Of a stretch of 64,000 nt of DNA, positions 550 through 59,990 are shown piece by piece. A program made the translations under genes and the position numbers. Below the pieces are notes generated by a model that made no database searches, was not told the origin of the DNA, and was given only the letters and a program-made list of their open reading frames with translations. Each line of letters starts with the position of its first letter. Within the stretch, counting starts at the first letter, position 1. Source of the DNA: Patagioenas fasciata (Eukaryota; Chordata; Aves; Columbiformes; Columbidae); contig NC_092560.1 in the NCBI RefSeq assembly GCF_037038585.1, forward strand, positions 85,235,549-85,299,548, written 5' to 3'.

Positions 550-9850
<9,301 letters not shown>

Positions 9851-9906
9851 TCCCTCAGACAGCCCCGCCACCGCCCCTCGGGCTCCGACAGCTCCACCGC
9901 CCACGT

Positions 9907-10006
9907 CGCCTCCGCCGCCGCCCCCCGGCACCGCCCCCGCTGCCGTACGGGGGCGTACGCCCCCGTACGGCAGCGGGGGCGGTGCCGGGGGGCGGCGGCG
10001 GAGGCG
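9907..10006. repeat. Perfect 100-bp palindrome, no spacer
   Basis: Reading outwards from the centre between 9956 and 9957, the two 50-base arms are exactly complementary. Complementarity breaks at 9906/10007. The centre is GGGCGTACGCCC and the arms are very GC-rich. It lies 57 bases upstream of the FECH start codon on that gene's strand. If transcribed it would form an extremely stable hairpin in the 5' leader. It may also be a fold-back assembly or cloning artefact, since spacerless perfect palindromes are unstable. Confidence 0.95.
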
Positions 10007-10034
10007 GCCGGGGTAGACGGGGCAGCCCGTCATT

Positions 10035-10097
10035 CCCCTCAGCCCGCCAATCCCCTCAGCCCGCCAACCCCCTCAGCCCGCCAAGCCCCTCAGTCAC
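10035..10097. repeat. 17-bp tandem repeat, about 3.5 copies
   Basis: The unit CCCCTCAGCCCGCCAAN occurs three times in a row, followed by a degraded fourth copy. It directly flanks the palindrome upstream of FECH. Confidence 0.85.
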
Positions 10098-10379
10098 CTC
10101 AAGCCCCGGCTGCGTGACCGCTACCGCAGGGCTCGGCAATGAGAGACTGAAGCACAAAAAAAGACACCGGTACCTAGCTTTTATTTGAGGGGAAAGTTAA
10201 TAACGGCATCCCTCGCATCACGCCGCGGTTGTGTTTTGAAGGGTTTCTTTGCAAGGGGATGCGGTAAGTAGGAAACTGACTGATATCACTTATTAGGTTG
10301 CAGGTAGTCTTACTGTACTTGCTTAAATATTAATGCAGCACATCTCTAACATTTGAAGTACCTTCCCTCTTTTTGTCAG

Positions 10380-24392: not shown

Positions 24393-41714
<17,322 letters not shown>

Positions 41715-43930: not shown

Positions 43931-45653
43931 GGTGAACGTGGGGCTGGCCGGGAGGCTGCAGAGGCCCCTGTGCTCAGGAGAGAGCAGAGAGGGGCCCAGG
44001 GTAAAGGGGTCCTCCAGTGCTGGGGTGACCAAGCAGTGCAGAGCTGGGTTTCTGGGCACCTGGTCTGCAGGAGAAGGGCCGGATGGGAGGTCAACGCCAT
44101 GCCAGAAGTTCAGGGGAAGGTGGGGAGCGATCACAAGGTGAAAGAGGAGACGGGAGAACCGAGAGCACAGAGCAGCAGAGATAACCAATACTGAGGCAGT
44201 GGGGATGGAAGGGAGCAGAGCGCACATCCAGCGGCACGAGGCACAGAGAACCAAAAGTGAATTAAATATGGCAGGAAGAGATGCGGCTCCTACTGATTTC
44301 TGCAGCGGTCACTATTCTGGGGAGAAAAAAGACACCACAATTAAAAAAAAAAAAGAACCAAAAAGGCTATACCATGCAGGAGAAACAACCTATTTATTAA
44401 CAACGCTGAAATAAAATGAAAGCAACAGCCCATTCTTCAAAGGAGCTGCTCTCAGAAGAGGGATGGACCATTTCTTAGCTTTGCGTGCACTGTTTTTATG
44501 TTCAGACTTGAGCTGAAACAACAACTGCTACAAAACAGTCTGTCAAGCAAGGGCTTGGTTTGCTGGAGCTGGGGGTAACATTGTTACAAACAAGATCGAA
44601 CCCCTTTCCCTCTTCACAACAATCTCTCACATCAAGCTTAAATTCAACCAATAATTAGAAATGTTTGAACATACACAGCAGGAAAATAATGAGCAGGATG
44701 AATTCCAGCACAAGAAAAGCTGCACGGAGCCTCTCGGAGACAGGAGCAGCGTTTCACACACCCAGATGTGCGTGACTCCGTGTAACACAAGCTCCACATG
44801 GAAAGCTGAGGGTCCTGTGGGGGACGGAGCTGTGCGTTCCCAGGGCAGCCGCTCCTGAGCTGGGCACCGGCAGCTCCGGTGCTGGCGCGGGGCAGAACCA
44901 GGCGAACGGGCCGATCCCGCACCAAACGGAGCTGATCCCACCGCGGGGTGGTGTGGGCAGGTAGAGCGGAGGAAAACAGCGTTAAACACAAGTTTCATCA
45001 GACCTGCTTGAGTTTATTTACTAAAAGGGCAGAAAACTCCGGTGCAAATTCCACAGGTTTTATGTGTGCTCGTGCCCCGGGGCAAGTACCAGCTAACTGG
45101 GAATAACTCAGACCTTGGGATAAAAGCATTTACTGCATTTGTTTGAAGGCAATAAAACAACAACTAAAAAATTCCTACTAGAAATTCTCCTCTGAGAGTC
45201 ACTGCGTGTGACACTGTTGCAAGACCCCGGGGTCCCAGGGACCATAACTTCAATGCTTGGGGTCACTCAAAGTGGCCTGAAAACAAAGTTACAGATCCAC
45301 CTAAAAGAAGCTGAGCACAACTCCTCCTCCGCCCCCCCGCAGATTGCCGCTTCGGAACCCAACAGCACCGGGATTTTAAGCCAAGGTCACAAAACAAACT
45401 CAAATGGTACAAAACACAAGGTCAGAGAGACCTTTCTAAACTACTCTAGGTCTGTGGAGTTAAAGGACAGAAAAGCTACAGCGAGGTGTTTCACTGATAT
45501 TTAACCGGGTATTTTAAAAAGCAAACATATGAAAGACCCGATCCTCAGATATTTTGGTTTTATCCCATATCTCTTTACTCTAGAAAGCTTACAAGAGCCA
45601 TCAGTACACATTAAAGCAAAGCAACGCCAGAAGCAGGTAAATGCAAACAATCC

Positions 45654-45888
45654 GAGCCGGTACACACCAAACTGGCACCCACCCAACCCCGGCACCTGGC
45701 GAGCCGGTACACACCAAACTGGCACCCACCCAACCCCGGCACCTGGCGAGCCGGTACACACCAAACTGGCACCCACCCAACCCCGGCACCTGGCGAGCCG
45801 GTACACACCAAACTGGCACCCACCCAACCCCGGCACCTGGCGAGCCGGTACACACCAAACTGGCACCCACCCAACCCCGGCACCTGGC
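45654..45888. repeat. 47-bp minisatellite, five apparently identical copies
   Basis: The unit starts GAGCCGGTACACACCAAACT and ends CCCCGGCACCTGGC. All five copies read the same, which implies very recent amplification or homogenisation. It yields spurious ORFs on both strands. Confidence 0.95.
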
Positions 45889-48800
45889 GAGCCCGTCCCG
45901 CCGTCAGCCAAATGGAGTGCCAGGCTGTGCCACGGTAATAAACACAGTCACACCAACGTCCTGCCCAATAAAATGAGAATGGACTCCAAATCCCCTTGGG
46001 AATCCCCACCGAACGCATCAAAGCCTGGACTCTGCTTGGAGCTCCAACAACGAACCAGCCACAGGACACTTGTTTTCCTTGTGAGCAGGAAGAGTGTTGC
46101 AATATTCCCCATATTCACCAACTGACGTGTTTTTAAAAGCTTTCCTATACTCATTGGGTTTATTTATTTACTACATGTCACTGGACAAAGAAACACCGAA
46201 AACCAACCCCTGCTCCCAGGAGCACTTCCCAAACTGCAGCTAGATACCGTGTCCAACATTAACCTTGGAGGGAGGGGTTCCCCCAGGGACTTTCTAGCAG
46301 ATGCACAATTCCTCCAATTACATTTTCCCCGGAGAGACAGAGGTAATTATTCTGCCATCTTCAGCTGTAACACATTGCTCATCTTGCCAATAACTGGGAT
46401 TTTAAACTAAAAACGAAGCACGAAACAAAGACACCCTGTTAGGTACCAATACAGCAACTGCAGGGATGCTTGCAGGACTGCGATCCAAACCACCAAAATT
46501 AAACCAGAGCCCGCAGAGGGCTCTGATGGCTCTGTCAAAGCAGTCACCTGTATTTAAGAGACCTACGTCCATCCCCCAGCTTATACCCTCGGAGGTTTAA
46601 GAATGACTTTTGATCCGTGGGCACATGGTTAGAGAACGGCTCTAACAACGTTAGAGAGCTGAAGGAGCAGAAAACAAGGTTTTATTCGTGAAGTGAAATT
46701 CCTACAGCCAAAAAAGGCATTTGGCACCTAAATGTCCACGGGCTGGTACGAACAACAAACGAGACGATAGCTGCAGGTGAGCACTACAGGACCTGCAGCA
46801 GAACCGCTCCCATCCAGCCCATAACCATCCGCAGGGAACAGGGGCTCGGGCAACGCTGCTCAGCTCTCGCTCGCTATTTAATCCTCACCGAGCGGCACCC
46901 AGAACCAAAGGCCTTCCATGGTGGGATATTGCGTTTCTAGTCTCACTCCACTGATCCCAGCCAAATGCTTTAATAGCGTATCGTCCTTCATTAAAAATGT
47001 ATTAATCAGCTAATCTGCCTGTAACACGAGCTTCTACAGGGAGACAGGCAAATAATAAGCTTTGCTTTCAAAATGTAAGAAACAGATCACGTATTACTTC
47101 AAATAGGAAATCTTACTGGTAACAAGTGTTGTGACAGCCAGATAGAAGGATCTTCTGACCAACCCAAACCTCCCAGCTAATCTTCATGATTTTTAGGAAG
47201 AAAAAGTAGTGACTTGAAATAGCTTGAATCAACACAAGGAAACAACCTTTGTTCCAAACTCTACCAGGCTTTGGTTGGATTGCCATGCAAATTAAACTCA
47301 ACAATTTATATAGCTTCTTCACACAAACCAGTTACATTTACTTCACCAAATGACTACTTTCAAGTGATTGAACACCCTCAAAATCACCTCTTCACGGGGA
47401 ACAATTTCTGGAACACCCTGAGTTCTGCCCACACCCTCCTGGTGTGCCAGGTAAGGCCCGGCCCTGGCCCCGTCCCACAGAAAGGCAGCCCCAAGAGCCC
47501 GGGTCACCGTTTCGGGCCGGCTGGGACTGCTCTGGCCACCCAGGGCAGTCCGCATCGAGCGGCACCGACGTGGGATCAGTACACCAGAGGGGGGCAAACC
47601 GAACCCCAGCGCTGGAGCCTCAACTCCAAGACAACCAGGCACACTTTGCATTAGGCAAAAAAATCCCATAGGTTATAATTCAGAACGTATCCTATATGGT
47701 GCGTGCCCTTTAGCATCACCCGCAGCGCCCCAGTGACTATCGCGGTGTCGGGGCTGGGTGCAGTCGATCAGATGGGCGGTTCTGGCACTGGTGCAGCGGC
47801 ACAACCGCGGACACTGACCTGCCGAGTGCGTCACCGGCACCAAACGGGGCGGCTCACGGCCATGGCAAACCAGCAGAGGTTGGCTTGTCTGCCAGAGCTC
47901 CCGCAGCTCCCCAGCACAGCCGCTCGGGCCAGGCACGCTCCTCAGAACCAACGGTGCTCAGAGCAGCCGGAGAGCACACGCGAACCAAACCACGGCACTG
48001 AGGAAACAAGCTGCTGACCTGACACATCATCTTCATCGCACTGTGACCACGGAGAAAGTTCCCACCCTGAAACTGGCAACACGTCTAACATGAGGTGACT
48101 CAGAATTCCTATCAAAAGAGATTAAAATCCAAGTGATTAAAATCTGGCTGTAGATAAAATGCTCGTGGAGACGCAGTGCGCCTACACATCCCAGGACACC
48201 AGAACACACGTCATACCTGATGAGTCCGAGATCTGCAGCACTCGGCAGAACCACAAAAACTTCCAAGAGCACTCGCAGAGACCCAGGTGATCACCGCAGC
48301 CTGAGAAATCCCCGGGGAACCTGTTCTGTAAGCAACCGGGCTCGTATGAGTTAGCCTGGTTATGTCGTCTATTGCTGCCATTCACCCACCCCAAGTTCTA
48401 TGCACACACGTATGTATAAATACACACACAAAACTTTTAAGTACAAAATGTATATATGTATTGATTCACAATAGTACCTCATCTGACAGAAAACATTTAT
48501 AAAAGGGGTTGTTTCGAGCAATTTGTGACAACAAATTGTGCAGAGGTTGCTCAAAACATTAGTCTGGATAGTAGAAGTTAATTTCACTTTCCACAAGCAT
48601 CAGATGATAAAATTCACATCTTGTATCTATTGATCAGCAATAATGCAGAATCTATACTCTACCAGAGAATAAGCAATAACAACAGCATTAGTACCCACCA
48701 GAGGAATTTGACTGGTGGCCATCGAGCACTCAAAGTATAGCTGCCTGTTCACATTTTAAGATTGCCATGTATGAAAATGAATCTGAAGGCCATTCCAGCC

Positions 48801-58548: not shown

Positions 58549-58554
58549 TTTGAT

Positions 58555-59990
58555 CCAGATGCTCTCAGTGGCTGTTTGTGTCGGAGCTGTTGATCTGGAT
58601 GCTCTCAGTGGCTGTGTCGGAGCTGTCGGTCCAGATGCTCTCAGTGTCTGGTTGTGTCGGAGCTGTCGGTCCAGATGCTCTCAGTGTCTGGTTGTGTCGG
58701 AGCTGTTGGTCCGGATGCTCTCAGTGGCTGTGTCGGAGCTGTTGATCCAGATGCTCTCAGTGGCTGTGTCAGAGCTGTCGGTCCAGATGCTCTCAGTGGC
58801 TGTGTCGGAGCTGTCGGTCCAGATGCTCTCAGTGGCTGTGTCGGAGCTGTCGGTCCGGATGCTCTCAGTGGCTGTGTCGGAGCTGTCGGTCCAGATGCTC
58901 TCAGTGGCTGTGTCGGAGCTGTCGGTCCAGATGCTCTCAGTGGCTGTGTCGGAGCTGTTGGTCCAGATGCTCTCAGTGGCTGTGTCGGAGCTGTTGGTCC
59001 GGATGCTCTCAGTGGCTGTGTCAGAGCTGTTGGTCCAGATGCTCTCAGTGGCTGTGTCGGAGCTGTCGGTCCGGATGCTCTCAGTGGCTGTGTCAGAGCT
59101 GTCGGTCCAGATGCTCTCAGTGGCTGTGTCGGAGCTGTCGGTCCAGATGCTCTCAGTGGCTGTGTCGGAGCTGTCGGTCCGGATGCTCTCAGTGGCTGTG
59201 TCGGAGCTGTCGATCCAGATGCTCTCAGTGGCTGTGTCGGAGCTGTCGGTCCGGATGCTCTCAGTGGCTGTGTCGGAGCTGTCGGTCCGGATGCTCTCAG
59301 TGGCTGTGTCAGAGCTGTCGGTCCAGATGCTCTCAGTGGCTGTGTCGGAGCTGTCGATCCAGATGCTCTCAGTGGCTGTGTCGGAGCTGTCGGTCCGGAT
59401 GCTCTCAGTGGCTGTGTCGGAGCTGTCGATCCGGATGCTCTCAGTGGCTGTGTCAGAGCTGTCGGTCCAGATGCTCTCAGTGGCTGTGTCGGAGCTGTTG
59501 GTCCGGATGCTCTCAGTGGCTGTGTCACAGCTGTTGGTCCGGATGCTCTCAGTGGCTGTGTCGGAGCTGTTGGTCCGGATGCTCTCAGTGGCTGTGTCGG
59601 AGCTGTCGGTCCAGATGCTCTCAGTGGCTGTGTCGGAGCTGTCGGTCCAGATGCTCTCAGTGGCTGTGTCGGAGCTGTCGGTCCGGATGCTCTCAGTGGC
59701 TGTGTCGGAGCTGTCGATCCAGATGCTCTCAGTGGCTGTGTCGGAGCTGTCGGTCCGGATGCTCTCAGTGGCTGTGTCGGAGCTGTCGATCCGGATGCTC
59801 TCAGTGGCTGTGTCGGAGCTGTTGGTCCGGATGCTCTCAGTGGCTGTGTCAGAGCTGTCGGTCCAGATGCTCTCAGTGGCTGTGTCGGAGCTGTTGGTCC
59901 GGATGCTCTCAGTGGCTGTGTCAGAGCTGTTGGTCCGGATGCTCTCAGTGGCTGTGTCGGAGCTGTTGGTCCGGATGCTCTCAGTGGCTG
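58555..59990. repeat. 36-bp satellite array, about 40 copies
   Basis: The unit reads CAGATGCTCTCAGTGGCTGT plus GTCGGAGCTGTCGGTC. Copies vary mainly at three sites (T or C before GGTC, G or A in GGTC/GATC, A or G in CAG/CGG). The left end is degraded. Since 36 is a multiple of three, the array is open in several frames and gives spurious ORFs of 505, 453 and 295 codons. A set of five variant units recurs 14 units (504 bp) later, showing block duplication. Confidence 0.96.

Follow-up and report, generated by a model that had tools for sequence, protein, structure and literature searches.

A perfect spacerless GC-rich palindrome upstream of the ferrochelatase start codon in Patagioenas fasciata and its probable origin by template switching

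The FECH locus and its upstream palindrome

The window (the whole 64-kb stretch of Patagioenas fasciata DNA that was analysed) lies on contig C48 of its own assembly (1.454 Gb, 359 contigs), which served as the genome searched. A protein family was matched by 4 of the 6 window proteins. On the basis of Pfam, structure and exon matches, the gene downstream of the palindrome described here is ferrochelatase (FECH), which is carried on the minus strand; matches to the ferrochelatase family (PF00762) were found at 1010-1423 and 5312-5677, the latter also matching ferrochelatase structures. In a genome search, C48 and a second contig, C47, each gave five stop-free ferrochelatase exon matches, ten in all, with none elsewhere; two of those on C48 fall past the left edge of the window. 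Rightward on the same strand as FECH are matches to a class II tRNA synthetase and a phospholipid-translocating ATPase, which we take from gene order to be NARS1 and ATP8B1.

The coding part of FECH exon 1 (9784..9850, minus strand, 67 nt) begins with the ATG at 9850-9848, adjoins a GTGAGT donor and presumably resembles human FECH exon 1 both in its peptide and in its 67 coding nucleotides. Between this exon and the next ferrochelatase exon match lies a 27/54-bp minisatellite (8845-9245, approximately 15 copies of 27 bp), which is of equal length in the C47 copy. Elsewhere in the window, tandem arrays were located at 33777-34732 (58-bp unit, 16.5 copies), at 58554-59990 (36-bp unit, 39.6 copies, with long open frames in several frames) and at 45653-45893 (47-bp unit, 5.1 copies), the last with 100% matches between copies, which suggests a young expansion.

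The segment from 9907 to 10006 was found to be its own reverse complement, comprising a left arm (9907..9956) and a right arm (9957..10006), neither assigned a strand, of 50 bases each with no spacer or loop, and with 88 G+C among its 100 bases; the symmetry ends at exactly 50 bases per arm. The perfect, spacerless, GC-rich palindrome described in the initial annotation is thus exact, as is its placement 57 bases from the FECH start codon: the palindrome occupies positions -57 to -156 relative to that codon, inside a CpG island, and 56 bases separate its near edge from the ATG. This interval (9851..9906, minus strand), which is likely to hold the transcription start or a short leader, contains GGGCGG at -26 and -52 and ACGTG at -56, touching the near edge of the palindrome. 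In minus-strand reading, GGGCGG stands at -73 and -86 in the near arm, with mirror copies in the far arm at -132 and -145. On the far side of the palindrome, Tandem Repeats Finder identified a GC-rich 17-bp tandem repeat (10023..10093, 4.2 copies, no strand assigned); minus-strand G-quadruplex-like motifs start at 10089 and 10055.

Apart from the palindrome, no inverted repeat with arms of at least 12 bases and a spacer of 0-8 was present in the 64-kb window, where the runner-up among spacerless palindromes measured 16 bp (30061-30076). Half-arms reached 14 at most in 2000 dinucleotide shuffles of the CpG island (9400-10150), and with the base frequencies of the flanks the number of such palindromes expected in 64 kb is approximately 10^-22; a chance origin was ruled out on the exactness of the palindrome and these results. 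Folded as single-stranded DNA, the palindrome gave -83.9 kcal/mol (z -17.3). A background survey of 17 stretches of 10 kb from the genome, which contain 15 CpG islands of at least 400 bp by the thresholds of the script and form a sample too small for a rate, revealed no arm longer than 11 (spacers 0-8) and no spacerless arm longer than 10.

The palindrome is uncommon, yet of a kind already known. PMC7680136 counts, in the human reference, 783 near-palindromes of 100-200 bp that have no spacer and at most four mismatched pairs. The longest among these are AT-rich, and only 2% of palindromes have more than 80% CG. In the survey across life cited here (PMC13155455), the longest perfect human arm is given as 140 bp and spacerless eukaryotic inverted repeats are described as disproportionately AT-rich. 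Palindromic AT-rich repeats (PATRRs), as described in PMC7999016, are likewise long, have little or no spacer and may form a hairpin or cruciform, but they are several hundred bp in length and more than 90% AT, whereas the present palindrome is 100 bp long, 88% G+C and situated in a promoter CpG island.

Two homologous copies

The palindrome was found at two sites in the genome, in the window on C48 and at C47:622399-622498, both 100% identical. These sites belong to a 29.8-kb region (window 106-29906 and C47:602500-632299) in which the two contigs, in reverse orientation, share 99.956% identity, located where C48 ends and C47 starts. A total of 13 differences (12 substitutions and one indel) separate the copies, and two of these lie close to the palindrome, the indel (10101) at a distance of 95 bp and a SNP (10106) at 100 bp. 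The right junction of the palindrome has one site each on C48 and C47, with no third copy in the genome, and the core GGGGGCGTACGCCCCC (9949..9964, no strand assigned), which could fold into a stem of 6 bp closed by a GTAC loop, occurs in the whole genome only within the two copies of the palindrome.

Three DM-domain (DMRT-type) matches were identified on C48 (72.1-72.2 Mb) and two on C6, while none were found on C47 in the genome search. Since DM-domain matches lie on C48 and none on C47, the arrangement fits a reading of C48 as Z and C47 as W with a common pseudoautosomal region, and a region of this kind is described for palaeognath birds (PMC6735826; PMC11036779). Only 0.04 differences between C48 and C47 are expected across 100 bp, so the identity of the homologues over the palindrome is uninformative and is no proof of independence.

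Origin of the palindrome and competing explanations

The best explanation of these observations, and one that we consider quite likely to be correct, is a real short-range template switch which made the palindrome, is carried on both homologues and has a small effect. During replication or repair of the FECH CpG island, a new strand ending near the present centre would have folded back or switched to the complementary strand, copied approximately 50 bases in reverse and then rejoined the original template. The left, C-rich arm would be the source and the right arm its inverted copy, the fold-back possibly having been primed at the core; the switch itself, its direction and the role of the core as primer are all inferred from the sequence. 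What was found, exact 50-bp arms that are absent at other genome sites, is the perfect local inverted copy of neighbouring sequence that such an event is expected to produce. Short-range template-switch mutations, as set out in the four-point model (PMC7954356; PMC8794818), make a local reverse-complement copy and leave a perfect inverted repeat (PMC7954356), as here, and are described as both creating and maintaining hairpins (PMC8794818). The present case, in which the event is a presumed one, differs from those in being spacerless, with 50 bases per arm and 88% G+C. Microhomology break repair offers an alternative route, which is favoured for many microinversions according to PMC8755829.

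The direction of copying was assessed from base composition. On the plus strand the left arm has a GC skew of -0.273 and the right arm one of +0.273, compared with -0.241 for the 100 bp to the left and -0.417 for the 100 bp to the right; the left arm is thus C-rich on this strand like both flanks, and the skew of the right arm is opposed to theirs. When the flanks were modelled as Markov chains of order 0, 1 and 2, the left arm outscored the right by 9.1, 7.5 and 9.5 bits respectively. The right arm is therefore probably the flipped copy and the left arm the original, although the skew argument is indecisive, because at order 1 the forward reading was the better fit for 48 of 52 overlapping 50-mers of the left flank (median 9.5 bits) and the reversed reading for the other 4.

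The alternative raised initially, that the palindrome is a fold-back assembly error hiding true promoter sequence, is weakened by the second copy. Far from being restricted to one molecule, contig or haplotype, the palindrome is present on both C48 and C47, and because these homologous copies have their own nearby differences, an error that arose in just one molecule or one contig is unlikely. The form of the error that survives is one common to both copies, in which fold-back, polishing or the filling of a gap would have produced the palindrome at a poorly read GC-rich promoter, or one copy would have served to patch the other. Such an error is in our estimation unlikely. It would accord with the description of GC-rich bird promoters as a weak spot in older assemblies (PMC9516821), with the palindrome's length of exactly 100 bp, a round number, and with the expectation that the copies would be identical over this length in any case. 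Fold-back library artefacts of long reads also resemble the palindrome in being reverse-complement copies, the two halves of which adjoin directly in some reads (PMC12870357); however, such reads are described as mirrored about the read midpoint, whereas the mirrored part of the present sequence is 50 bases long and gives way to unique sequence, and the two homologues agree. The differences at 95 and 100 bp from the palindrome also speak against a shared error, as does the window itself, which contains no N and in which long arrays such as that at 58554-59990 are resolved, suggesting that long reads were used. Given its presence on both homologues, the palindrome probably arose by a real accident of DNA copying rather than by an isolated mistake in assembly.

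Its resemblance in shape to terminal hairpins would favour an insertion at the promoter, whether of a mobile element, of a viral terminal hairpin or of contaminating DNA, but such an origin is extremely improbable: the only two genome sites are both the homologous FECH site, with no copies at unrelated sites of the sort that mark MITE-like elements, and in base skew the left arm matches its flanks. No match to 9850-10130 was found in plasmids or phages, and exact-pattern searches with a 22-base core pattern gave no exact match in viral_contigs or genome_contigs. A mobile element, phage, plasmid, viral hairpin and bacterial contamination were ruled out on the two-site-only occurrence together with these null searches of plasmids and phages and, by exact pattern only, of viral and genome contigs.

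A further explanation holds that the palindrome is an old functional element of the FECH promoter that acts by forming a cruciform or by offering a symmetric platform of GC boxes, and the arms of which have been kept identical by repeated arm-to-arm copying. It lies in the proximal FECH promoter with paired GC boxes at -73, -86, -132 and -145, and an absence of mismatches still permits an age of millions of years. Template switching is reported to be able to maintain perfect hairpins (PMC8794818), and inverted repeats are described as preferentially located upstream of transcription starts (PMC13155455). Against this, inverted GC-box pairs with a spacer of up to 30 (pattern CCGCCCCC N{0,30} GGGGGCGG) showed no genome-wide excess (167, compared with 165 for the reversed control), a pattern outside which the palindrome's own pairs fall, being 36-62 bases apart. 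We regard an old functional element as very unlikely, and we would give slightly less credence still to the fuller proposal that this bird lineage has an old, selected cruciform element in its FECH promoter, with arm-to-arm copying keeping it perfect and supercoiling from transcription toggling it so as to tune heme synthesis.

Age, effect on FECH and significance

The finding of 0 mismatches in 50 pairs limits divergence to at most 0.03 substitutions per site per arm (95%), which, if rates of between 4e-9 and 1e-9 per site per year are assumed, sets an upper bound of 7.5-30 million years. The suggestion that the palindrome reflects a recent event is therefore not established, as mismatch-free arms permit an age of up to approximately that bound. 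The accompanying premise, that such palindromes are normally deleted or broken in living genomes, is borne out in part, since longer arms and shorter spacers are described as more recombinogenic (PMC7999016), but was too strongly put, given the 783 human near-palindromes (PMC7680136). Instability is expected of long spacerless palindromes (PMC7999016), which counts against the explanation by a real mutation.

Folding of the predicted FECH leader depended on where it was taken to start, with values of -164.2 kcal/mol for a start beyond the palindrome, -52.8 kcal/mol from its centre and -21.3 kcal/mol from its near edge. Strong leader hairpins block scanning, and FECH is an essential gene. Because the palindrome is carried on both homologues, the exon matches are without stops and a leader spanning the palindrome is predicted to fold at -164.2 kcal/mol, the start of FECH transcription most likely lies downstream of the far arm. 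The initial annotation had proposed a giant hairpin in either the promoter or the leader of FECH; on the same folding prediction a leader hairpin is unlikely if FECH is expressed normally, and a position in the promoter is the better guess. As transcription would begin downstream of the far arm, the effect of the palindrome on FECH is probably small. The arms are expected to present a duplicated mirror-image GC-box segment at -57 to -156. Lying upstream of the presumed start site, they could be extruded as a cruciform when the DNA is negatively supercoiled.

If the palindrome were to prove an artefact, it would serve as a warning that the two homologous copies in one assembly can carry the same false promoter sequence. 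If it is real, it would provide a clean natural example of an essential gene tolerating, at its promoter and on both homologues, a perfect GC-rich palindrome of 100 bp, and the stability of such a structure in a vertebrate germ line and its effect on transcription would become measurable.
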